Source: Tepidibacter aestuarii (GTDB taxonomy: Bacteria > Bacillota > Clostridia > Peptostreptococcales > Peptostreptococcaceae). Taken from it: a stretch of 64,000 nt of DNA. The notes beneath the pieces were generated by a model. It saw only the letters and a list, made by a program, of their open reading frames with translations. It was not told where the DNA came from and made no database searches. Shown one piece after another: positions 6,435 through 60,111 of the stretch (positions are counted from its first letter, which is position 1; each line of letters starts with the position of its first letter). The position numbers were made by a program, and so were the translations under genes. Where the stretch lies: NCBI RefSeq assembly GCF_934924865.1, contig NZ_OW235315.1, positions 434,001 to 498,000 on the forward strand. Reading direction: 5' to 3'.

Positions 6435-6671
6435 TTATTCTTCATAACGTAAAACATATTCTTTTTCGTTTATTTCATATATTTTTTCAATTTCATTAGA
6501 AATTAAATTATCAATTTTATCATTATAACAAAACTTAGAACATATGCCGCAGTTAGAGCTTAACTTTCTTGGGACAGGCATTAGTTCACTTTTAATATTA
6601 TTTTTCTTACAGAATCTATCGAATTTAATGGCTCCTGAATGGGTAAAAAATATTGCTATATATTCATTCAT
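6435..6671 (-). CDS. DUF3343 protein, putative Se/S carrier-like
   Basis: A 78-residue protein of the DUF3343 type. These small proteins recur beside selenium-dependent molybdenum hydroxylase maturation and cysteine desulfurase genes. The fold begins with YIAIFFTHSGAIKF and contains the cysteine motif NCGICSKFC, suited to holding a persulfide/selenide or a metal. It is the third gene of the leftward set yedE-tusA-DUF3343, 14 nt after the TusA-like gene and with ribosome site GAGGT. Role in selenium or sulfur transfer is inferred from family context. Confidence 0.7.
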   Translation of the reverse strand: MNEYIAIFFTHSGAIKFDRFCKKNNIKSELMPVPRKLSSNCGICSKFCYNDKIDNLISNEIEKIYEINEKEYVLRYEE

Positions 6672-6685
6672 TGTATTACCTCGCT

Positions 6686-6892
6686 CTATTTTTGGGCATT
6701 TATAATATAATCTTCTTCGATTTCTTTTACTTCATACTTATATCCTGAGCTTTTTAAGAACCTAGATATATTATTTACTGCAGTATTATCATCTGCAACG
6801 ATTTCAATTTCTTTTGGATTAGAACTTACAGCATTTTTTGTTATAAGAACAGGTTGAGGACAAGACATACCTCTTACATCAACTTTAACCAC
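6686..6892 (-). CDS. TusA/SirA-like sulfur (selenium) carrier; N-terminal half of YedF
   Basis: 68 residues covering one TusA fold with the signature RGMSCPQPVLITK, where the Cys is the persulfide/selenide acceptor. In many Clostridia this domain forms the N-terminal half of YedF, fused to a DsrE-like half. Here a stop follows directly, so the second half is absent. GTG is the start, 2 nt after the yedE stop, with AAAGGAG inside yedE, so translation is coupled. It probably relays sulfur or selenium delivered by YedE and a cysteine desulfurase. Confidence 0.78.
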   Translation of the reverse strand: MVKVDVRGMSCPQPVLITKNAVSSNPKEIEIVADDNTAVNNISRFLKSSGYKYEVKEIEEDYIINAQK

Positions 6893-6894
6893 TT

Positions 6895-7971
6895 TTAAGC
6901 AACTCCTTTACCTTTAGATTTTAGATTAACCATATCAGAATTTAAGTAAGATATTAGGCCAACAACTAAAAGACAAACTATAACAGCTATTTTGCCGTTA
7001 GGAGAAGGTCCTTTAGGGCTTGCAGCTAAAGCAAAGTTGTGACAAATGGCAGCACCTATAAGCAGTCCCATAACTGTAATTGCTGAATCTGTATTACCTT
7101 CACCAGATAAAATTAATTGTCTCATAGGGCATCCACCTAGTAATACACTAGACCATCCACATAAAACCATTCCTAAGAAGTTCCAAAGTCCATCGGAATG
7201 AGCAATAGGTTGAGCTTCAAACCCTATGTTAAAGTATCCTAAAGCAATATTTCCTATTAATGCAAATACAAGTATAGCTATAAATCCAGATATTAAATAT
7301 GTATCTTTAAATAATATTAAATCTCTTATTCCACCTACCATACAAAGTCTAGTTCTTTGAGATAAAATACCAACTATTAATCCACAAGCTAAAGCAATAA
7401 GAGCTGGTGCGTGCATAGCTCCAGGTCCTTCTTCACTAAAGAATATAAAGCTTGGAGCTGATATTAGTAAAATTACTAAGAATATATTCATTATAGGGAA
7501 TATATAACCTTCTGATTTAGGTAATTTATAATTTCTTTTAAGAGAAAATCCTTTGTTTAATGAAGCAATACCTAAAATAATACCAAAAGTAAAACCTATA
7601 ATTCCAACTATAGCATTTAAATCCCCTCCTGCAAGTCTTAAAACCATTCTAAGAGGACATCCTAAAAACATTAGAGCTCCTATCATTACAGTAACACCTA
7701 AGGTAAATCTAATAAATGGAGAAGATCCACCTTTAACATTGAATTCTTTTTTCAAACTAGCTACTGCGAAAGAACCTAAAACTAGTCCCATAACTTCAGG
7801 TCTTAAATACTGAACAACTGCAGCTCTATGAAAACCAAGTCCTCCTGAGATATCTCTTACAAAACATGCTATACAAAAACCCATGTTTTTTGGATTTCCA
7901 AGTTTAACTAGAAGTACAGCGATAATACCAACAATGGCACCTGTAAATATAATACCTTTTTTTGACTCCAT
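6895..7971 (-). CDS. yedE: YedE-type selenium/sulfur membrane transporter (YeeE/YedE family)
   Basis: 358 residues with about ten transmembrane helices. The family's conserved membrane cysteines are present in CIACFVRD, GCPLRM, RLCMVGG and GGCPMRQLI; the duplicated GCP(L/M)R motifs line the substrate path. YedE proteins of this length next to TusA and DUF3343 are associated with selenium utilisation, while shorter YeeE relatives move thiosulfate. GGAGG precedes the ATG. It is the first gene of the leftward operon and is divergent from the desulfurase at 8145, suggesting shared regulation from 7972-8144. Confidence 0.85.
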   Translation of the reverse strand: MESKKGIIFTGAIVGIIAVLLVKLGNPKNMGFCIACFVRDISGGLGFHRAAVVQYLRPEVMGLVLGSFAVASLKKEFNVKGGSSPFIRFTLGVTVMIGALMFLGCPLRMVLRLAGGDLNAIVGIIGFTFGIILGIASLNKGFSLKRNYKLPKSEGYIFPIMNIFLVILLISAPSFIFFSEEGPGAMHAPALIALACGLIVGILSQRTRLCMVGGIRDLILFKDTYLISGFIAILVFALIGNIALGYFNIGFEAQPIAHSDGLWNFLGMVLCGWSSVLLGGCPMRQLILSGEGNTDSAITVMGLLIGAAICHNFALAASPKGPSPNGKIAVIVCLLVVGLISYLNSDMVNLKSKGKGVA

Positions 7972-8144
7972 TCTACGAAACCTCCTTAAATGTAATATAT
8001 TGCAAACATGATTTTATCAGAATATTGAAATAAAGTTAAATAGAAAAAATGTATAATTTGTCATAAATATATAATAATTTTCTATTATTGTAAAAATAAG
8101 TAATGTTATAAAATAAAGGTATATTAAACATAGGAGGGATATAT

Positions 8145-9293
8145 ATGAAATCAGTATATTTAGACAATGCAGCAACTTCTTTTCCAAAAGCTATAGGTGT
8201 TTCAAAAAGTATTCTAAATTACTTAGATAATATAGGTTGTAATGTAAATAGAGGAGCTTATAGTTCTTCATTTGAAGCAGAAAATATAGTATTTGAAACT
8301 AGAGAATTAATTTGTAAGTTATTTAACTTTGATAAAGAAGAAAATGTAGTTTTTACAAAAAACGTAACAGAGAGTTTAAATGTATTAATAAAAGGATTAA
8401 TAAAAAAAGGAGATCATATAATAGTATCTTCTATGGAGCACAACGCTGTTATGAGACCTATTAATTCATTAACGAAACAAGGTGTAGAATTTTGTAGGGT
8501 ACAGTGTAGTGTATTTGGAGAATTAAATGCTAGTGATTTAATAAAAAATATAAAGCCCAATACAAAGGCCGTTATTATGACACATGCTTCTAATGTATGT
8601 GGAACAATATTAAATCTTGAAGAAATAGGTAAGATTTGCAGAGATAATAATATATTTTTCATTATAGATTCTGCTCAAACAGCTGGATTTTTAAATGTAG
8701 ATTATAAAAAGTTAAATGCTGATGCTATAGCTTTTACAGGACATAAATCACTTTTAGGACCACAGGGAATAGGAGGATTTGTTGTAAGTGATAAATTAGT
8801 AGATGAAATGAGTACTTTTATAGAAGGAGGAACAGGAAGCTTATCAGAACATGAAATTCAACCAGATTATATGCCGGATAAATTCGAGGCAGGTACTTTG
8901 AATATTCCTGGAATATATGGACTTAATGCTTCTTTGAAATATTTGTTTGAAGAAGGAATAGATTCAATAAGAGAAAAAGAATTAAATCTTTTAAATGTAT
9001 TTTTAGAAAAAGTTAATAATATAGAAAATATAAGGGTAATAGGGAAAAGCGGAATAGAGGGAAGAACAGCTTTAGTTTCTATAGATTTTAAAGAGTATGA
9101 TAATGCAGCTATATCATATAAGCTTTATGAAGATTTTGGTATTATGACAAGATGCGGACTTCATTGTGCTCCTTTTGCACATAAAACTTTAGGAACTTTT
9201 CCTGATGGCACAGTAAGATTCAGCTTTAGTCATTTTAATACTATTGATGAAGTTAATTACACTATTAATAGTATAGTTAAGTGCTTAAAATAG
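8145..9293 (+). CDS. Class V aminotransferase / cysteine desulfurase-like (EF2568 type)
   Basis: 382-residue PLP enzyme. The PLP lysine is Lys201 in TGHKSLLGPQG, preceded by DSAQTAG with the cofactor-binding Asp. The mobile loop TRCGLHCAP provides Cys337/Cys341 as candidate persulfide or selenide cysteines. This subfamily (modelled on Enterococcus faecalis EF2568) is linked to selenium-dependent molybdenum hydroxylases. Divergent placement from yedE fits release of sulfur/selenium from cysteine or selenocysteine. A closely similar paralogue lies at 61055. The start has AGGAGGG. Confidence 0.85.
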   Translation: MKSVYLDNAATSFPKAIGVSKSILNYLDNIGCNVNRGAYSSSFEAENIVFETRELICKLFNFDKEENVVFTKNVTESLNVLIKGLIKKGDHIIVSSMEHNAVMRPINSLTKQGVEFCRVQCSVFGELNASDLIKNIKPNTKAVIMTHASNVCGTILNLEEIGKICRDNNIFFIIDSAQTAGFLNVDYKKLNADAIAFTGHKSLLGPQGIGGFVVSDKLVDEMSTFIEGGTGSLSEHEIQPDYMPDKFEAGTLNIPGIYGLNASLKYLFEEGIDSIREKELNLLNVFLEKVNNIENIRVIGKSGIEGRTALVSIDFKEYDNAAISYKLYEDFGIMTRCGLHCAPFAHKTLGTFPDGTVRFSFSHFNTIDEVNYTINSIVKCLK

Positions 9294-40031: not shown

Positions 40032-40241
40032 ATGAAAAAAATTATTAATATTGAAGGAATGAGCTGTGGACATTGTGCAGGTAGAGTAAAAAAAGAGTTA
40101 GAGAGTATAGGTGAAGTTAAAAGTGCTGAGGTAAGTGCTGAAGAAAAAAAAGCAGTAGTAGAATTAGCAAATGAAGTAGATAATGAGAAGTTAAAAGAAG
40201 CAGTTGTTGAAGCTGGTTATAAAGTAGTAGGAATAGAATAA
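40032..40241 (+). CDS. copZ: Copper chaperone CopZ (HMA domain)
   Basis: 69 residues, one heavy-metal-associated ferredoxin-like domain with GMSCGHCAGRV (Cys12, Cys15) binding Cu(I). Cytoplasmic shuttle that would hand copper to the ATPase encoded at 53532. Ribosome site AAGGAGG. It ends the operon driven by sigma-54 promoter 1 and is followed by a strong terminator. Confidence 0.92.
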   Translation: MKKIINIEGMSCGHCAGRVKKELESIGEVKSAEVSAEEKKAVVELANEVDNEKLKEAVVEAGYKVVGIE

Positions 40242-51378: not shown

Positions 51379-53130
51379 ATGAAAGTAATTAAGTTATATG
51401 TGGATGGAATGGTTTGTAATAGCTGTGAAAATATTATAGAAAATGTTTTGTTAGAAGTTGATGGAGTTATCAAAGTTAATGTAGTATTTAAAAATTCTAA
51501 TGTTGAGATAACTTATGATGAAAACAAAGTAAATGAGAAAACCTTAAAGAAAACTATTAAAAATGAAGGATATGAAGTTATTGAAAAACCGAATGATTCA
51601 AAAAAATCTACTTTTGGGTTGTTAATATTAATTTTTAGTATATTTTATATTGTAAAAAATACAGTAGGATTCAACTACATTCCAGAAGTAAATGAAGAAA
51701 TGGGATATGGATTGATTTTTATAGTTGGACTTTTAACTTCTATTCACTGCATTGCCATGTGTGGAGGAATTGCTCTATCTCAAAGTGTAAATAGTAATTC
51801 AAATAATAAAGTAAGAAGTTCTATACTTTATAATATAGGAAGAGTAATTTCATATACTTTAATTGGAGGTATAGTTGGTGGGTTAGGACAAATAATAACA
51901 CCTTCAGGTCAATTTAAGGGTATCGTTGCTGTTTTTGCAGGAATATTTATGATTTTATTAGGTTTAAAAATGCTAAATATAATTTATATTCCTAGGTTTT
52001 TTAAATTTAAAGTAGTAATGCCAAAGTTTATAACTAATAATATAAATAAAAATAATACTCTCACACCTTTTTTTATAGGTATTGCTAATGGATTTATGCC
52101 ATGTGGACCTCTTCAAACGATGCAATTATATGCGTTAGGAACAGGAAGTTTTGTAAAAGGAGCTTTATCAATGTTTTTATTTAGTTCAGGTACAGTTCCT
52201 CTTATGCTTGGTTTTGGAGCGATAACTTCAATCATAGATTCTAGATCTAATAAAAGAATATTAAAAATTAGTTCTATATTAGTTATAGTATTGGGTATAA
52301 TAATGGCAAATAGAGGGCTAGCGTTATCAGGATTAGCATTAGATATGCCAGGATTTGAAAACTCAAAAAAAGATATGCAACTAGCAAAAATAGAGAATGG
52401 AAAACAAGTAGTTAATTTAACGGTTAAGAGTAGTCAATATATACCAGACTCTAAAGTAGTTAAAGTAGGAGAACCGGTAAAAATAAATTTAGATATAGAA
52501 AGCTTAAATGGATGTAACAATCCAATTGTAATTTCAAAATATGGAATAGAAAAAGATTTAACCAAAGATAATAGTATTGAATTTATACCTGATACAGAAG
52601 GCCCTATAACTATAAGCTGTTGGATGGGAATGATTACAACAAAATTGTATGCAGTTAATGATTTAAGTGATGTTAATAATAATGAATTTGATTCAAAAGA
52701 AAACTATAATGAAGGATTTAGTGGTTCAGGTCTTTGCAGCGTTCAATCAGAAAATAAAGCTGTAATTGCAGATATAAAGGACAATAATCAAGTTATTGAG
52801 ATGAATGTAAATTCTAGTGGGTATAGTCCTAATATTTTAGTTGTACAAAAGGACATACCTGTTACTTGGGTTATAAATGGAGAGGAAGTTACCTATTGCA
52901 ATAACTCAATTATAATTAAAGGAACTGATTCAAAAATAGAGGTTAAAGAAGGAAAAAGTGGATTGAAATTCACACCAAATGAAACTGGTGAAATTGAATT
53001 TACATGCTGGATGGGTATGCTAGGCGGTAAAATAGTTGTAGTAGATGATATAAATAATGTAGATTTAAAATCATTAGAGGAAACAGCAAATCAAAATATT
53101 CAAAATGGTGGAGGCTGCTGTGGAAATTAA
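51379..53130 (+). CDS. HMA - TauE/SafE-like membrane - double cupredoxin-like fusion
   Basis: 583 residues. Residues ~1-70 are an HMA copper domain (GMVCNSCENI). Residues ~75-330 are a TauE/SafE-type membrane domain with TSIHCIAMCGGIALSQ and NGFMPCGPLQTMQLYALG, whose Cys are typical of its copper-associated branch. Two homologous extracytoplasmic beta domains follow (~345-435 and ~470-560), each ending CWMGM, a Cys/Met pair like the copper loop of cupredoxins. The tail GGGCCGN adds cysteines. It probably moves or stores copper at the membrane. Driven by sigma-54 promoter 5. Confidence 0.82.
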   Translation: MKVIKLYVDGMVCNSCENIIENVLLEVDGVIKVNVVFKNSNVEITYDENKVNEKTLKKTIKNEGYEVIEKPNDSKKSTFGLLILIFSIFYIVKNTVGFNYIPEVNEEMGYGLIFIVGLLTSIHCIAMCGGIALSQSVNSNSNNKVRSSILYNIGRVISYTLIGGIVGGLGQIITPSGQFKGIVAVFAGIFMILLGLKMLNIIYIPRFFKFKVVMPKFITNNINKNNTLTPFFIGIANGFMPCGPLQTMQLYALGTGSFVKGALSMFLFSSGTVPLMLGFGAITSIIDSRSNKRILKISSILVIVLGIIMANRGLALSGLALDMPGFENSKKDMQLAKIENGKQVVNLTVKSSQYIPDSKVVKVGEPVKINLDIESLNGCNNPIVISKYGIEKDLTKDNSIEFIPDTEGPITISCWMGMITTKLYAVNDLSDVNNNEFDSKENYNEGFSGSGLCSVQSENKAVIADIKDNNQVIEMNVNSSGYSPNILVVQKDIPVTWVINGEEVTYCNNSIIIKGTDSKIEVKEGKSGLKFTPNETGEIEFTCWMGMLGGKIVVVDDINNVDLKSLEETANQNIQNGGGCCGN

Positions 53131-53146
53131 TTTTTATTTAATGGTA

Positions 53147-53206
53147 TTGACAAGAATATCTGCATATGTTTAAATGGAATTACAACCACCCCTCATAGGG
53201 GGGTGG
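53147..53206 (+). promoter_or_regulatory. Promoter and CsoR-type operator of csoR-copA
   Basis: TTGACA (53147-53152), 17 nt, TTAAAT (53170-53175), then CCACCCC (53186-53192) and GGGGTGG (53200-53206). The G/C-tract pseudo-palindrome in an AT-rich genome matches the form of CsoR operators and lies at the expected transcription start. Confidence 0.8.
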
Positions 53207-53224
53207 GGTATGGAGGTGTTGCTT

Positions 53225-53488
53225 TTGGATAAGAACCAAGAAGTTGCTGTACATAATTTAAAGACGGCTAGAGGTCAAATCGATGGAATTCTAAAAATGA
53301 TAGAGGATGAAAGATATTGTATAGATATATCAAATCAGATAATATCAGCTCAATCTTTATTAAAAAAGGCAAATTTGACTATATTAAAAAATCATTTAAA
53401 TAGTTGTATAAAAAACTCTTTTAAAGATGACGAATATGAAAAAATAGAAGAAGTATCTAAAATAATAGAGCGAATTATAGGAAAGTAG
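53225..53488 (+). CDS. csoR: Copper-sensing repressor CsoR
   Basis: 87 residues from TTG 53225; GGAGGTG precedes it by ~8 nt and the start then aligns with other CsoR proteins. An upstream ATG at 53174 would translate through the operator. All-helical, with Cu(I) ligands Cys32, His57 and Cys61 (YCIDIS, KNHLNSC) conserved. Cu(I) binding releases DNA, so the operon including copA is induced by copper. It gives a control layer separate from the sigma-54 system. Confidence 0.92.
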   Translation: MDKNQEVAVHNLKTARGQIDGILKMIEDERYCIDISNQIISAQSLLKKANLTILKNHLNSCIKNSFKDDEYEKIEEVSKIIERIIGK

Positions 53489-53531
53489 TTTTGGGCATAA
53501 TGAAATTTAATTAAAAGGAGTGAGATTAGCT

Positions 53532-55976
53532 ATGAATAAAAGTTTTAATATAGAGGGTCTACATTGTGCTTCTTGTGTAAATGCTCTAGAAAAAGCAATG
53601 CATAAATTGGAAGGAGTACAAGAAGCTAGCGTTAACTTAGCAACAAATAAAATGGAAATAAAATATAAAGAAGATGTTATTTCTGAACAAGAAATCGTAG
53701 AGGCTGTAAGTAAGGCTGGATTTAAAGCAATTACTAATGAAAATATAAGAGAAATTGTTATTCCAGTACAAGGAATGACTTGAGCATCTTGCGTAAGTGC
53801 TGTTGATAGGGCTATCAACAAATTAGACGGAATAAAATCTGTAGATGTAAACATCGCTACTAATAAAGCAAAAGTGATTTATGATGCAGATAAGGTAAGA
53901 ATTTCAGAAATAAAAAATGCAATCGAAAAAGCTGGATATACACCTTTAGATATAGAAGCTGAGGAAATACAAGATCAAGATAAAGAAAAAAAAGAAAAAG
54001 AAATAAAAACATTGTTTAAAAAGTTTATCTTATCTGCTATATTTACAACACCTCTTTTTTATATTGCGATGGGCCATATGATTGGGTTACCGCTACCTAA
54101 TATTATTGATCCTATGCATAACCCACTAAATTTTGCATTAGTTCAAATACTTTTAACTATACCTGTAGTAATAGCAGGGTATAAGTTTTATACTGTAGGG
54201 TTTAGGTCGCTATTTAGAGGAAGCCCAAATATGGATTCGCTAATAGCTGTAGGAACAAGTTCAGCTATCGTATATGGTTTATATGCTATATATCAAATTA
54301 TTAATGGAAATGTAGAGTATGCAAAGGATTTGTACTTTGAAACAGCAGGAGTTATTATAACTCTAATACTTCTTGGAAAATACTTAGAATCAGTTTCAAA
54401 AGGAAAGACTTCAGAGGCTATAAAAAAGCTTGTAGGTATGCAGCCTAAAACTGCAATAGTTATTCAAGATGGGGAGGAAATAACTATTGCTATTGAAGAA
54501 GTTGAAGAAGGAGATATAGTACTAGTAAAACCTGGAGAAAAGATTCCTGTTGATGGAGTTGTTATAGAAGGTCATACTTCTGTTGATGAATCTATGCTTA
54601 CAGGAGAAAGTATTCCAGTTGAGAAAAAATCAGGAGATAAGGTAGTAGGAGCGAGTATTAATAAAAATGGTGTAATTAAATTTAAGGCAACTAAAGTAGG
54701 AAAAGATACAGCTCTTTCTCAAATTATTAAGTTAGTAGAAGAGGCACAAGGAAGTAAAGCACCTATTGCAAAGCTTGCAGACGTAATAGCAGGTTATTTT
54801 GTTCCTATAGTTATGGGAATTGCTTTAATATCAGGAGTTGCTTGGTATATTTCGGGTGAGTCTTTAATATTCTCTTTAACTATATTCATATCTGTTCTAG
54901 TTGTAGCTTGCCCATGTGCGTTAGGACTTGCAACTCCAACAGCTATAATGGTTGGAACAGGAAAAGGAGCAGAAAATGGAGTTTTAATTAAAAGTGGAGT
55001 AGCACTTGAATCAGCTCACAAAATAGAAACAATTGTATTTGATAAAACGGGAACTATAACAGAAGGAAAGCCAGAAGTTACAGATATAATCACTTTAGAT
55101 AATTACGCACAAGAAGAACTACTTCAAATTGCAGCCTCTGCTGAAAAAGGATCAGAACATCCATTAGGGGAAGCTATTGTAAGAGGAGCAGAAGAAAAAA
55201 ATATTTCTTTATTAAATTTGGATAAGTTCTATGCTATACCTGGTCATGGAATAGAAGTTGAAATAAAAAGCAAACAAATATATTTAGGTAATGAAAAATT
55301 AATGAGAGACAAGAATATAGACATAAGCTTGAAAGAAGAATCTGATAAGCTTGCAGGTGAAGGAAAAACACCGATGTATATGGCTGTTGACGATAAACTA
55401 GAAGGGATTATCGCTGTTGCAGATGTAGTAAAAGAAAGTAGTAAAAAAGCTATAGATATGCTTCATGATATGGGAATAGAAGTTGCTATGATTACAGGTG
55501 ATAATAAGAAAACTGCTAGTGCTATTGCAAAGCAAGTTGGAATAGATGTAGTTTTAGCAGAAGTACTTCCTGAAGATAAATCAAATGAAGTTAAAAAGCT
55601 TCAAGGAAAAAATAAAGTTGTAGCCATGGTTGGAGATGGTATAAATGATGCTCCAGCTTTAGCTCAAGCAGATATAGGTATTGCTATTGGTTCTGGTACA
55701 GATGTAGCAATGGAATCAGCAGATATAGTTCTTATGAAAAGTGATTTAGTAGATGTTGTTACAGCTATAAAATTAAGCAAAAGTACTATAAGAAATATTA
55801 AGCAAAATTTATTCTGGGCATTTGCATATAACACTGCAGGAATACCTCTTGCAGCAGGAGTGTTTTATGCACTAGGTGGACCGAAGCTTAATCCGATGTT
55901 TGCAGCAGGGGCCATGGCTTTAAGTTCTGTATCTGTAGTAACTAATGCTTTAAGACTGAGAAAATTTAAAGCATAA
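53532..55976 (+). CDS. copA: Copper-exporting P1B-ATPase CopA with in-frame UGA at metal-site Cys (candidate selenoprotein)
   Basis: One frame of 814 codons if UGA 53781-53783 is read through. HMA1 (~3-68) has GLHCASC; HMA2 (~77-142) has GMT-UGA-ASC, so codon 84 replaces the first Cys of GMTCASC. The rest is intact: TGES, the CPC motif in [12 protein letters not shown], phosphorylation site DKTGT, SEHPLG, and [11 protein letters not shown] hairpin at 53801-53820 suits selenocysteine insertion. ATG 53532 follows AAAAGGAG; GTG 53520 overlaps it. Exports Cu(I) across the cytoplasmic membrane; co-transcribed with csoR. Alternatives: a nonsense mutation or sequencing error. Confidence 0.85.
53801..53820 (+). 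promoter_or_regulatory. Candidate bacterial SECIS hairpin in copA
   Basis: TGTTGATA (53801-53808) pairs perfectly with TATCAACA (53813-53820) around loop GGGC (53809-53812). The loop starts 25 nt after the UGA and its first two bases are G. This matches the general bacterial SECIS rules: stem-loop close behind the UGA, small apical loop with G in the first two positions. Confidence 0.7.
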
Positions 55977-56440: not shown

Positions 56441-57490
56441 ATGAAAGAAAAAAACAAAAAAAATGTAGGGTTAGACTTTTTTGGTAGGTATCTTACAATA
56501 TGGGTGACTATATGCATAATAGTAGGAGTATCTATAGGTCAAATTTTTCCTGCTTTTCCTAGGGCATTAAGCAAATTTGAATATGCAAAAGTATCAATTC
56601 CAGTAGCTATACTTATATGGATTATGATTTATCCTATGATGCTTAAAATTGATTTTTCAAGCATTGTAAATGCTACGAAAAAACCAAAAGGACTTACAGT
56701 AACTTGCGTTACAAACTGGCTAATAAAACCATTTACTATGTATTTAATCGCAGGATTTTTCTTGAAAATAGTTTTTAAGAACTTAATTCCAGCAAATCTA
56801 GCATCTGATTATCTAGCGGGAGCATTACTTTTAGGAGCAGCACCTTGTACAGCTATGGTATTTGTTTGGAGCCATTTAACAGAGGGGGATCCTGCTTATA
56901 CAGTAGTTCAAGTTGCTATAAACGATTTAATTTTACTATTTGCATTTACACCTATAGTTGCATTTTTACTTGGAGTAAGTGATGTAGTAGTACCGTATGA
57001 TACATTATTTTTATCAGTTGCTTTATTTGTAGTTATTCCTTTGGTTGGAGGGTATTTATCTAGAAAATATATTATAAAAAACAAAGGAATAGAGTATTTT
57101 GAAAATATATTTCTTAAAAAATTTGACAATATAACAATAATAGGGTTGTTGCTTACTTTAATTATAATATTTTCTTTCCAAGGAGAGGTAATACTTAACA
57201 ATCCAATGCATATTGCATTAATAGCTGTACCGCTTATAATTCAAACAGTTTTTATATTTTTTATTGCATATTTTTGGGCAAAAGAGTGGAAACTACCTCA
57301 TAATATAGCGGCACCTGGAGCAATGATTGGAGCAAGTAACTTTTTTGAATTAGCAGTAGCTGTTGCAATATCTTTATTTGGTTTACAATCTGGAGCAGCT
57401 CTTGCAACTGTCGTTGGAGTATTAGTTGAGGTTCCTTTAATGCTTGCTCTTGTTAAAATAGCAAATAAAACTAAACATTGGTTTAAGTAA
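56441..57490 (+). CDS. acr3: Arsenite efflux permease Acr3
   Basis: 349 residues, ten transmembrane helices, bile-acid/arsenite symporter family. The essential Cys136 is in LGAAPCTAMVFVWS, with FFELAVAVAISLFG in the late helix carrying the conserved Glu. Exports As(III) from the cytoplasm by proton exchange. Strong AAGGAGG site. First gene of acr3-arsD-arsA; ArsA with Acr3 is a combination known from several arsenic operons. Confidence 0.93.
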   Translation: MKEKNKKNVGLDFFGRYLTIWVTICIIVGVSIGQIFPAFPRALSKFEYAKVSIPVAILIWIMIYPMMLKIDFSSIVNATKKPKGLTVTCVTNWLIKPFTMYLIAGFFLKIVFKNLIPANLASDYLAGALLLGAAPCTAMVFVWSHLTEGDPAYTVVQVAINDLILLFAFTPIVAFLLGVSDVVVPYDTLFLSVALFVVIPLVGGYLSRKYIIKNKGIEYFENIFLKKFDNITIIGLLLTLIIIFSFQGEVILNNPMHIALIAVPLIIQTVFIFFIAYFWAKEWKLPHNIAAPGAMIGASNFFELAVAVAISLFGLQSGAALATVVGVLVEVPLMLALVKIANKTKHWFK

Positions 57491-57519
57491 AAAATAATTA
57501 ATAAAAAGGAGTAGTTTTT

Positions 57520-57882
57520 ATGAAAAAAATGATTATATTTGACCCAGCAATGTGTTGTTCAACAGGAGTTTGTGGACCTTCAGTAGATCCAGAATTACTG
57601 AGAGTATCAACGATTATTAATAATTTGAAAAATAATGGAGTAATGGTTGAAAGATATAATTTATCAAGTGAACCACAGGCATTTGTAGATAATAAAATGA
57701 TAAATGAATTATTAAATAGTGAAGGCGTAGGTATTTTACCCGTGACAATTATAGATGATAAGGTAGTTAAGACTAAGGAATATCTTAAAACTGAGGAATT
57801 TTATAAATTATTAGATTTAGCAAATGATGTATCTAAAGCTTCGAAACCTAATGGATGCAATTGTAAAGATGGATGTTGCTAA
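57520..57882 (+). CDS. arsD: Arsenic metallochaperone ArsD
   Basis: 120 residues, thioredoxin-like. As(III) ligands are the N-terminal MCCSTGVC (Cys12, Cys13, Cys18), and vicinal pairs at the C-terminus (CNCKDGCC) are as in longer ArsD proteins. Hands arsenite to ArsA encoded 20 nt downstream. Ribosome site AAAAGGAG. Confidence 0.93.
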   Translation: MKKMIIFDPAMCCSTGVCGPSVDPELLRVSTIINNLKNNGVMVERYNLSSEPQAFVDNKMINELLNSEGVGILPVTIIDDKVVKTKEYLKTEEFYKLLDLANDVSKASKPNGCNCKDGCC

Positions 57883-57901
57883 TTATAAAGGAGCGATATA
57901 G

Positions 57902-59644
57902 ATGACTAGCTTTAATCCTAATAAAATAGATTTAACTAAATACTTATTTTTTACAGGAAAAGGTGGGGTTGGGAAAACATCAACAGCTTGTGCTACTGCC
58001 ATAACTTTAGCGGATCAAGGTAAAAAGGTTATGCTTATAAGTACAGATCCAGCTTCAAACTTACAGGATGTATTCAATACTGATTTAAATAATAAAGGTG
58101 TTCAGATAAAAGAAGTTCCAAATCTAGTAGTAGCTAATTTTGATCCAGAGGAGGCTGCAAAAGAATATAAAGAAAGTGTTGTAGGCCCTTATAGAGGAAA
58201 GCTACCTGATGTAGTAATAAAAAATATGGAAGAACAACTTTCTGGTTCATGCACAGTTGAAATAGCAGCATTCAATGAATTTTCAAATTTCATAACGGAT
58301 AAAAAAGCAAAAGAAGAATTTAACCATATTATATTTGATACTGCACCAACAGGTCATACTCTTAGAATGCTGCAACTTCCATCGGCTTGGAGTAATTTTA
58401 TTAGTGACAATAAGCATGGTGCATCATGCTTAGGTCAATTAGCAGGACTTGAGAGTAAAAGAGAGGTTTATAAAAATGCAGTAGATATCTTAGCAAATAA
58501 AAACTTAACAACTCTGATATTAGTTTCTCGTCCAGAAGAATCTCCTTTAAAGGAAGCGGAAAGAGCATCAAAGGAGCTTTTAGATTTAGAAATAAACAAT
58601 CAAATCCTTATAATAAATGGATTACTTAAAGATTCTGATGATGACTTATCTACAAATATTTTTAAGAAACAGCAAGAGGCGTTACAAAATATATCAAGAC
58701 ATTTAAGTGAATTACAAATATTTGAAATTCCACTTAGGCCATATAATGTTACTGGTATAGAAAATATAAGAGCATTTTTAAAAGAAGATAATGTTAAGTA
58801 TAGTAATGAGACTCTAAACATAGAGGTTATACCTAAGTTAAAGGATATTGTTGAAAATCTATATAGTTCTAATAAAAAGGTTATTTTTACAATGGGAAAA
58901 GGTGGCGTTGGTAAAACAACTATAGCTGCTACCATTGCACTTGGCCTTGCTAAAAAAGGTAAAAAAGTTCATCTAACAACTACTGACCCAGCAGCTCATT
59001 TAAAATTTATACTTGATGAAAGCTATGGAATTACATTAAGCCATATTGATGAGAAAAAAGAACTTGAAAAGTATAAAAAGGAAGTATTGAGCAAAGCAAG
59101 AGAAACTATAGGAGAAGAAGATCTTGCTTATATAGAAGAAGATTTAAGGTCTCCTTGTACTCAAGAGATAGCTGTATTCAGAGCTTTTGCACAGATAGTT
59201 GAAAGATGCGAAAATGAAGTTGTCGTAATAGATACAGCACCAACTGGACATACGCTTCTACTTTTAGATTCAACTCAAAGCTATCATAAAGAAATTGAGC
59301 GTTCACAGGGCAATATTCCTAAATCAGTAAAAAAACTTTTACCAAGATTGAGAAATGAAGAAGAAACAGAAGTTATAATAGTAACTTTAGCTGAAGCAAC
59401 GCCAGTATATGAAGCTATGAGGTTGCAAGATGATTTAAATCGTGCAGGAATAAATAGCAAGTGGTGGATAATTAATTCAAGTTTATTCGCTACAGATACA
59501 ACTAATAAAATTCTTAAAGCAAAAGCAAGTAATGAAATAGTTTGGATAAATAAAGTTAATGAAATTTCAAAAGGTAGTCTTGCAGTTATTAAATGGAATA
59601 ACGAAGAGATTAAAGGTGAAAAGTTATTAGATTTACTAATGTAA
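57902..59644 (+). CDS. arsA: Arsenical pump ATPase ArsA
   Basis: 580 residues, two homologous halves each with a P-loop: GKGGVGKTSTA (~20) and GKGGVGKTTIA (~335). Signal-transduction DTAPTGHTLR and DTAPTGHTLL motifs follow in each. Cytosolic ATPase that energises arsenite export by the membrane partner, here Acr3 rather than ArsB. AAGGAGCG ribosome site. Ends the operon; terminator follows. Confidence 0.94.
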   Translation: MTSFNPNKIDLTKYLFFTGKGGVGKTSTACATAITLADQGKKVMLISTDPASNLQDVFNTDLNNKGVQIKEVPNLVVANFDPEEAAKEYKESVVGPYRGKLPDVVIKNMEEQLSGSCTVEIAAFNEFSNFITDKKAKEEFNHIIFDTAPTGHTLRMLQLPSAWSNFISDNKHGASCLGQLAGLESKREVYKNAVDILANKNLTTLILVSRPEESPLKEAERASKELLDLEINNQILIINGLLKDSDDDLSTNIFKKQQEALQNISRHLSELQIFEIPLRPYNVTGIENIRAFLKEDNVKYSNETLNIEVIPKLKDIVENLYSSNKKVIFTMGKGGVGKTTIAATIALGLAKKGKKVHLTTTDPAAHLKFILDESYGITLSHIDEKKELEKYKKEVLSKARETIGEEDLAYIEEDLRSPCTQEIAVFRAFAQIVERCENEVVVIDTAPTGHTLLLLDSTQSYHKEIERSQGNIPKSVKKLLPRLRNEEETEVIIVTLAEATPVYEAMRLQDDLNRAGINSKWWIINSSLFATDTTNKILKAKASNEIVWINKVNEISKGSLAVIKWNNEEIKGEKLLDLLM

Positions 59645-59651
59645 ACAAAAC

Positions 59652-59697
59652 ATCCACTATAAGTAAAATAATATTTTTCTAATAGTGGATTTTTTTA
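59652..59697. terminator. Terminator after arsA
   Basis: ATCCACTAT pairs with ATAGTGGAT over a 21-nt loop, then seven Ts. Confidence 0.82.
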
Positions 59698-59727
59698 TTG
59701 AACTATTATATATATAGGAAAATTATG

Positions 59728-59782
59728 TTGACATACTAAATTTTATATGGATATACTTCATATATAGATTTAAATACATATA
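59728..59782 (+). promoter_or_regulatory. arsR promoter and operator
   Basis: TTGACA (59728-59733), 18 nt, TATACT (59752-59757), then an imperfect palindrome centred on ATTTAAAT (59761-59782) beginning TATATAGATTTAAAT. It resembles the acr3 operator, so ArsR likely represses both. Confidence 0.75.
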
Positions 59783-59799
59783 TGGAGGTTAAACAAAAT

Positions 59800-60111
59800 A
59801 TGGACAAAATGGTTGAAATATTTAAAGCTTTATCTGATAAAAATAGACTCCTTATTTTAGATATGCTTTCATGTGGAGAATTATGTGCCTGCGATATTAT
59901 AGAAGGATTAAACTTAACTCAACCGACTATTTCTCATCATATGAAGATTTTACAAAAGGCAAATTTAGTAAATGTAAAAAAAGAAGGAAAGTGGATGAGA
60001 TATTCTTTAAATTTAGAAGTTATAAAAAAATCAATAGATTATATAAACATACTTTCATCACCTAAAGAAGATTGTATTTGTAAAGGAATAAAAAAAGATT
60101 GTAATGACTAA
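59800..60111 (+). CDS. arsR: Arsenic-responsive repressor ArsR
   Basis: 103 residues, winged helix. The metal site is ELCACD at the start of the recognition region (Cys pair), followed by LTQPTISHHMKIL. As(III) binding releases DNA. ATG 59800 has ATGGAGG 11 nt upstream; an ATG at 59782 lies inside that site. Unusually, it is transcribed from its own promoter downstream of acr3-arsD-arsA, and it leads a second short operon with the phosphoesterase at 60127. Confidence 0.92.
   Translation: MDKMVEIFKALSDKNRLLILDMLSCGELCACDIIEGLNLTQPTISHHMKILQKANLVNVKKEGKWMRYSLNLEVIKKSIDYINILSSPKEDCICKGIKKDCND

Follow-up and report, generated by a model that had tools for sequence, protein, structure and literature searches.

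A copper-transporting ATPase of Tepidibacter aestuarii with a predicted selenocysteine in its second metal-binding domain

The copA gene of Tepidibacter aestuarii, located in the 64,000-nucleotide stretch of DNA that we analysed (the window), contains a single in-frame UGA that is almost certainly read as selenocysteine (Sec) by SelB and tRNA-Sec, helped by a hairpin just downstream. The predicted product is an 814-residue copper-export ATPase with Sec-x-x-Cys in the second of its two HMA domains (HMA2). An earlier reading of this DNA from its letters alone (the sequence-only reading) had proposed that the UGA encodes Sec at a copper site; the Sec is supported by exchange of UGA with Cys in relatives, by the hairpin and by the sel genes of the genome, while copper binding by that Sec is what we infer. 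The features of the gene are listed below in window coordinates.

53516 to 53520, + strand: likely ribosome-binding site AGGAG, 11 nt 5' of the copA ATG, read by eye
53532 to 55976, + strand: copA, encoding a P1B ATPase of Cu(I) type with two HMA domains; one UGA among its 814 codons
53565 to 53576, + strand: HMA1 metal motif C-A-S-C, both Cys encoded by TGT
53781 to 53783, + strand: in-frame TGA, codon 84, first Cys of the HMA2 CxxC (GMT-C-ASC; GMT-stop-ASC in the sequence), predicted to be read as Sec
53790 to 53792, + strand: second Cys of the HMA2 motif, codon 87, TGC
53801 to 53820, + strand: SECIS-like hairpin TGTTGATA-GGGC-TATCAACA, 8 bp, loop at 53809 to 53812

The copA frame runs from the ATG at 53532 to the TAA at 55974-55976, and its sole internal stop is the TGA of codon 84. 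The two same-frame halves that the sequence-only reading had seen, split only by this TGA and intact after it, are one 814-codon frame with all 730 codons 3' of the TGA open. The window holds 16 TGA-split frames with at least 25 codons before the TGA and at least 60 after it, copA among them. The copA frame traverses a known protein; the other 15 (14 on the - strand), assessed by eye rather than by family scan, look like chance, and no second convincing Sec gene was seen among them.

CopA is a predicted Cu(I) transporter by family, domains and nearest solved structures. Pfam identified two HMA domains, E1-E2_ATPase and Hydrolase, and the NCBIfam search placed the protein in the copper-translocating family TIGR01511 (645 bits, cut-off 397) and in TIGR01525 (674.2 bits, cut-off 346.25). 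It fell below the cut-off of the CopA equivalog PRK10671 (715.9 bits against 1316); since PRK10671 models one CopA type, the broader copper family was used to class the protein. The transmembrane CPC motif, which marks Cu(I) pumps, is present in the translation. Of the best nine sequence matches in the PDB, eight bear the names of copper or Cu(+) pumps and the ninth that of a zinc pump. HMA domains in the CopA and CopZ structures 2rml, 1p6t and 1k0v align to HMA1 and HMA2; we take these three to be Bacillus proteins with Cys-x-x-Cys in each domain.

The genome (3.67 Mb), in which the window occupies C1:434001-498000, encodes the machinery that Sec insertion would need. The sequence-only reading had set the presence of sel genes as a test, and selA, selB, selC and selD, the genes by which a Sec-decoding organism is recognized, were all found. 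SelB scored over its cut-off, SelA reached 624.7 bits and tRNA-Sec (selC) 72.2 bits against a cut-off of 47. The selD gene (C1:2281298-2282218, outside the window) itself has one in-frame TGA, and SelD is listed among widespread selenoprotein families in the available text of PMC9312934; this TGA serves as an internal positive control for Sec decoding. All four genes are located within about 8 kb (C1:2274525-2282218), with three other frames between the tRNA-Sec gene and selB. Across the order, selB was detected in 208 of 297 genomes and, compared by eye among the matches listed, in 31/31 genomes with a TGA-bearing CopA gene, an outcome with a chance of 8e-6 if kinship is ignored.

Relatives were surveyed in three steps: 61 were searched, then 297 genomes of the order, and codon-level checks followed. 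The first codon-level check covered 30 loci, of which 10 had TGA (seven in HMA2, three in HMA1). Among the matches listed in the order-wide search, the TGA stood at the first Cys of an HMA CxxC in all 32 TGA-bearing CopA genes, from 31 genomes, with 24 in HMA2 and eight in HMA1. The order search together with a pattern scan gave a wider set, among the matches listed, of 52 distinct Sec genes, with the Sec in HMA2 in 30, in HMA1 in 21 and in both domains in one, and in these 52 we did not find a stop at any other aligned residue; the set includes L051, a distant ATPase (35%), and L088, aligned from residue 71 only. The pattern scan covered GMT-U-A-[S/A]-C only and returned at least 117 stretches; its first 80 loci held 81 matches, many of them chance occurrences outside genes.

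Within the genus the TGA is present in three of four genomes, and the fourth, G001, has TGC at this position despite possessing selB, its codons around the motif agreeing with the Tepidibacter mesophilus protein, the closest named database protein of CopA (93% identical). Since this close relative with selB uses Cys, Sec would be useful but exchangeable, and inessential for the pump. Codon 84 thus aligns with Cys in relatives, as the sequence-only reading had expected for the GMT-C-ASC motif, and aligned close homologues display the UGA/Cys exchange that it had suggested looking for. By the Sec/Cys pair criterion CopA counts as a predicted selenoprotein, its TGA being aligned with a conserved Cys and kept in several species. 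Named carriers of the predicted Sec-CopA include Maledivibacter halophilus, Acidaminobacter sp. JC074, Romboutsia lituseburensis, Clostridium sp. CX1, Oceanirhabdus sp. and Tepidibacter formicigenes. In one locus of a Tissierellia MAG, L074 (positions 7000-8000), both HMA domains carry GMT-U-ASC, and the hairpins that follow them are nearly the same.

These data bear on whether copA has simply been disrupted by a nonsense mutation, as a pseudogene or through a sequencing error. The stop codon does break the frame, and broken or misread copies do occur, as shown by an unrelated TAA at residue 68 of the CopA relative L204. Among the matches listed, one further stop of another type was seen, a TAG in G236, just 5' of the aligned part of L205. 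Against disruption, TGA recurs at this codon in three of the four genomes of the genus and across many further genera; it falls on a ligand Cys and is accompanied by a hairpin and by sel genes. The 730 codons that follow it are open, and the protein is 96% identical to the CopA of G003. We regard disruption as extremely improbable and rejected it on the shared position of the TGA.

A quickly built tree from 80 ATPase cores (34 Cys, 29 HMA2-Sec and 17 HMA1-Sec) required 18 state changes, against a mean of 36 with shuffled labels, in a set that was chosen, is rich in TGA forms and has long branches. The tree drops 13 rows identical to others as well as L204 with its TAA; L205 counts as Cys by default, its match beginning downstream of the HMA domains, and L087, which has three HMA domains with a TGA in the first, is entered as Cys all the same. 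On this tree gain, loss and transfer of Sec in CopA are all possible. At the level of sequence, the predicted Sec occupies HMA1 in some genes and HMA2 in others, and it has repeatedly traded places with Cys.

Several further loci were noted in these searches. L051 (in G038), the more distant ATPase, has GVD-U-PSC, and at G111:C13:25721-25903 a weak HMA match falls in a frame of 714 residues that has one TGA; these two cases raise the possibility of Sec in further P-type metal ATPases. Short HMA-like frames with GMT-U-ASC were seen at L070:6345-6365, at L117:4836-4856 and in L090 (match on the minus strand), which come from MAGs, two of Poribacteria and one of Betaproteobacteria, and these frames are possible small Sec metal-binding proteins. 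The CopA of L131, a record named 'Lutibacter sp. B2', is identical to the G094 CopA from the order of the window, and its organism label looks wrong.

The 8-bp stem with loop GGGC was found where the sequence-only reading had placed it, with 17 nt from the UGA to the stem and 25 nt to the loop. The bacterial SECIS model, in the part of PMC13188914 available to us, has an apical loop of 3-9 nt, an upper stem of 4-16 bp, a G at loop position 1 or 2, a UGA-loop spacing of 16-37 nt and a minimum free energy of -7.5 kcal/mol or below. The copA hairpin satisfies the rules for loop (4 nt), stem (8 bp), loop G and spacing (25 nt). Folded alone it reaches -6.5 kcal/mol, weaker than -7.5 if that limit concerns the hairpin alone; a 60-nt piece reached -11.4 and a 56-nt piece -14.2 kcal/mol, both with extra helices. 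Compared with 200 synonymous recodings using the gene's own codons, the hairpin gave p = 0.005, the minimum attainable. The whole 56-nt fold was less striking (z -1.81), being equalled by 11 of 200 shuffles. An Rfam search of the whole window gave no match at gathering score, from a database that may or may not hold a bacterial SECIS family.

We compared Sec and Cys codons by taking, at each of 171 distinct sites, the best unbulged hairpin obeying the SECIS rules for loop, stem, G and spacing. Hairpins of -5 kcal/mol or below, a limit picked after the values had been seen, followed 38/53 TGA sites and 11/118 Cys sites (Fisher p 3e-16, from related sequences that are not independent samples). 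By class, this limit was reached at 19/31 HMA2 Sec, 19/22 HMA1 Sec, 4/57 HMA2 Cys and 7/61 HMA1 Cys sites. Of the 118 Cys sites, 49 lie in Sec genes, in whichever HMA domain does not carry the Sec; 7/49 of these reached -5 kcal/mol, as did 4/69 in purely Cys genes. Synonymous recoding, with 200 recodings for each of these related sequences, gave p <= 0.05 at 32/53 Sec and 3/118 Cys sites (HMA2 Sec 22/31, HMA1 Sec 10/22, HMA2 Cys 0/57, HMA1 Cys 3/61). At -7.5 kcal/mol or below there were few sites, 9/53 Sec and 5/118 Cys (HMA2 Sec 3/31, HMA1 Sec 6/22, HMA2 Cys 1/57, HMA1 Cys 4/61), and the energy rule is therefore often unmet by the hairpin alone. No hairpin was found at 3/53 Sec sites (L122, L029 and L103) under this simple unbulged model.

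Of 31 distinct TGA codons in HMA2, 17 are followed by a stem of the form GTTGA...TCAAC; none of the 57 Cys codons in HMA2 is. The sequence-only reading had named unrelated stops without a conserved hairpin in homologues as a sign against Sec, and the TGA codons at the HMA CxxC, with this stem in 17 of the 31 HMA2 cases, go the other way. Among 13 distinct variants of the stem (17 loci of the 31 HMA2-Sec), a set chosen for having the stem so that its pairing is partly by choice, 2/8 pairs changed on both sides with pairing kept, a count matched in 25/500 shuffles. The innermost pair was unpaired in 5/13 variants and the outermost in 8/13. In other lineages, stems of quite another sequence occupy this position, GGTAGAGGGTGCTCTATC and CTCGACAGTTAGTCGAG among them. 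The Cys gene L019 of the same genus is without the 8-bp hairpin, having a 4-bp stem of -3.1 kcal/mol (p 0.149). Residue 92 is Asp in 17/31 HMA2-Sec genes and in 2/58 HMA2-Cys genes, and the copA stem uses codons that are rare in copA (ATC for 8/90 Ile, AAC for 5/34 Asn). This bias and these rare codons suggest that the coding sequence bends to the stem.

Databases present the gene in another way. The proteins P0002 (from the copA gene here) and P0009 (from T. formicigenes) have 700 residues and no HMA match, as expected if the UGA were a true stop, with a small HMA1 protein followed by an internally started ATPase of that length without a full HMA domain. Both proteins begin inside HMA2 (at GTG 53874 in the window), the Cys form P0001 of T. 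mesophilus is a single 814-residue protein, and a true stop leaves the TGA/Cys exchange and the hairpin unexplained. A true stop is therefore very improbable, and these database copies lack their metal-binding domains because the UGA was read as a stop.

A further possibility is that copA has two outputs, with Sec insertion giving the pump and termination at the UGA giving an 83-residue, CopZ-like HMA1 chaperone. HMA1 is complete inside the 83-residue piece, and the arrangement recalls E. coli copA, where, in the text available of PMC5009743 and PMC10187127, frameshifting yields a 70-residue putative chaperone and the recoding likewise occurs within copA after the first HMA domain. The two differ in that the E. 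coli event is a frameshift, while copA here would have Sec insertion in a genome with a separate CopZ-like gene:

40032 to 40241, + strand: free-standing 69-residue HMA protein, CopZ-like, match at C1:474044-474223

Such a free-standing small HMA frame was present in 10/13 genomes with HMA2-Sec CopA, T. aestuarii included, and in 7/8 with HMA1-Sec CopA, one of which (G160) also has an HMA2-Sec gene. The loss of CopZ was considered as a sign of dual output and is unsupported by these counts, which concern frames of 69-100 residues, with open-frame lengths judged by eye and CopA N-terminal pieces left out; no such frame was found in G002, G130, G060 and G034. In HMA1-Sec genes, termination would give a mere stub before the domain. 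Dual output is compatible with Sec decoding at codon 84 but not needed by it, and we consider it unlikely. It is likewise rather improbable that the UGA acts as a selenium- and copper-responsive switch, in which low charged tRNA-Sec would stop translation at codon 84 and leave an HMA1-only copper chaperone, and high selenium would give a selenolate pump; the HMA1-Sec genes would then be forms without the codon-84 switch.

Under the preferred reading, SelB and tRNA-Sec would decode the UGA at 53781-53783 as Sec with the hairpin at 53801-53820, and the full 814-residue pump would be made, with Sec-x-x-Cys replacing Cys-x-x-Cys in the second N-terminal metal-binding domain. HMA2 would bind copper, since it is homologous to solved HMA domains, and would carry a soft selenolate-thiolate metal site, in which the selenolate would act as a soft ligand to Cu(I), or to Ag or Hg. 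Sec might confer tighter binding or easier recovery from oxidation, and HMA2 would then feed or gate the membrane pump.

The genes immediately upstream of copA are relevant to this function.

51379 to 53130, + strand: HMA - DsbD_2 - cupredoxin fusion (permease), HMA motif C-N-S-C with two Cys
53174 to 53488, + strand: CsoR-type metal-sensing repressor (PF02583), directly upstream of copA, true start maybe further in

The fusion protein likely belongs to the same copper cluster as copA. A Cys-His-Cys pattern, which we take to be the ligand motif of a CsoR-type repressor, is visible in the repressor translation. It is conceivable, though we doubt it, that the Sec is present but gives the CxxC pair redox protection or a means of regulation, as a selenenylsulfide, instead of binding metal. 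The DsbD_2 domain of the adjoining permease fits such a role, and UxxC recurs among the selenoproteins listed in the accessible survey tables, many of which are thiol oxidoreductases. By contrast, family and nearest solved structures both mark the domain itself as a copper-binding HMA, and its neighbours are the repressor and the HMA/cupredoxin permease, all of which argue for metal binding. On the other side of copA, the genes acr3, arsD and arsA and an arsR-type regulator were observed 3' at window positions 56441-60111.

The sequence-only reading had also placed selenium-handling genes at 6435-9293.

6895 to 7971, - strand: YedE family putative selenium transporter (TIGR04112, 529.8 bits, cut-off 200)

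This gene bears out part of that claim. At 8145-9293 the frame encodes a cysteine desulfurase family protein (TIGR01977), which missed the selenocysteine lyase cut-off (404 against 525). Positions 6435-7971 also hold two small frames on the same strand as the YedE gene, of which one looks SirA-like by eye and the other contains CGIC, and this region is likely a selenium or sulfur handling cluster.

A Sec copper pump has already been predicted as a family, and the copA gene here is a further member. Rows for a cation-transporting ATPase E1-E2 (UxxC), a predicted selenoprotein family, appear in the available tables of PMC2398784 (2008), PMC5029168 (2016), PMC9312934 (2022) and PMC13188914 (2026); one of these texts shows no motif. 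The row in PMC5029168 carries the numbers 25 and 32, and ABB15669.1 is given as an example of the family; from the OS_ names beside the rows, we infer that their cited source is the 2007 Olavius algarvensis symbiont paper. CopA resembles this family, as it stands in those rows, in having Sec first in UxxC (UASC) and in being a TIGR01525 ATPase. These rows name no domain, and they mention neither a Sec that alternates between HMA1 and HMA2 nor a double-Sec form. No paper on this alternation or on a double-Sec CopA was found in our searches of the openly licensed literature, and the portions available of PMC2147054, PMC3519856, PMC1088965 and PMC12013277 yielded nothing on Sec-CopA.

Two selenoprotein models come close to parts of the locus. 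The CopA HMA domains match NF041115, a UxxU metal-binding (seleno)protein, with 108.8 bits over two stretches (cut-off 95), whereas CopA here is UxxC. NF045683, a MerT/CopZ fusion selenoprotein, matched only the neighbouring permease (25.9 bits, cut-off 375). By their names, these two models describe metal-binding and MerT-type proteins and not ATPases.

To a family seen as a table row only, in the sources available, the present analysis adds the position of the predicted Sec, the hairpin, the decoding machinery and a Cys form from the same genus. According to the available text of PMC13188914, what exactly such selenoproteins do in detoxifying heavy metals needs more study. The alternation of Sec and Cys in CopA provides ready-made pairs for testing what selenium would do at a copper site.
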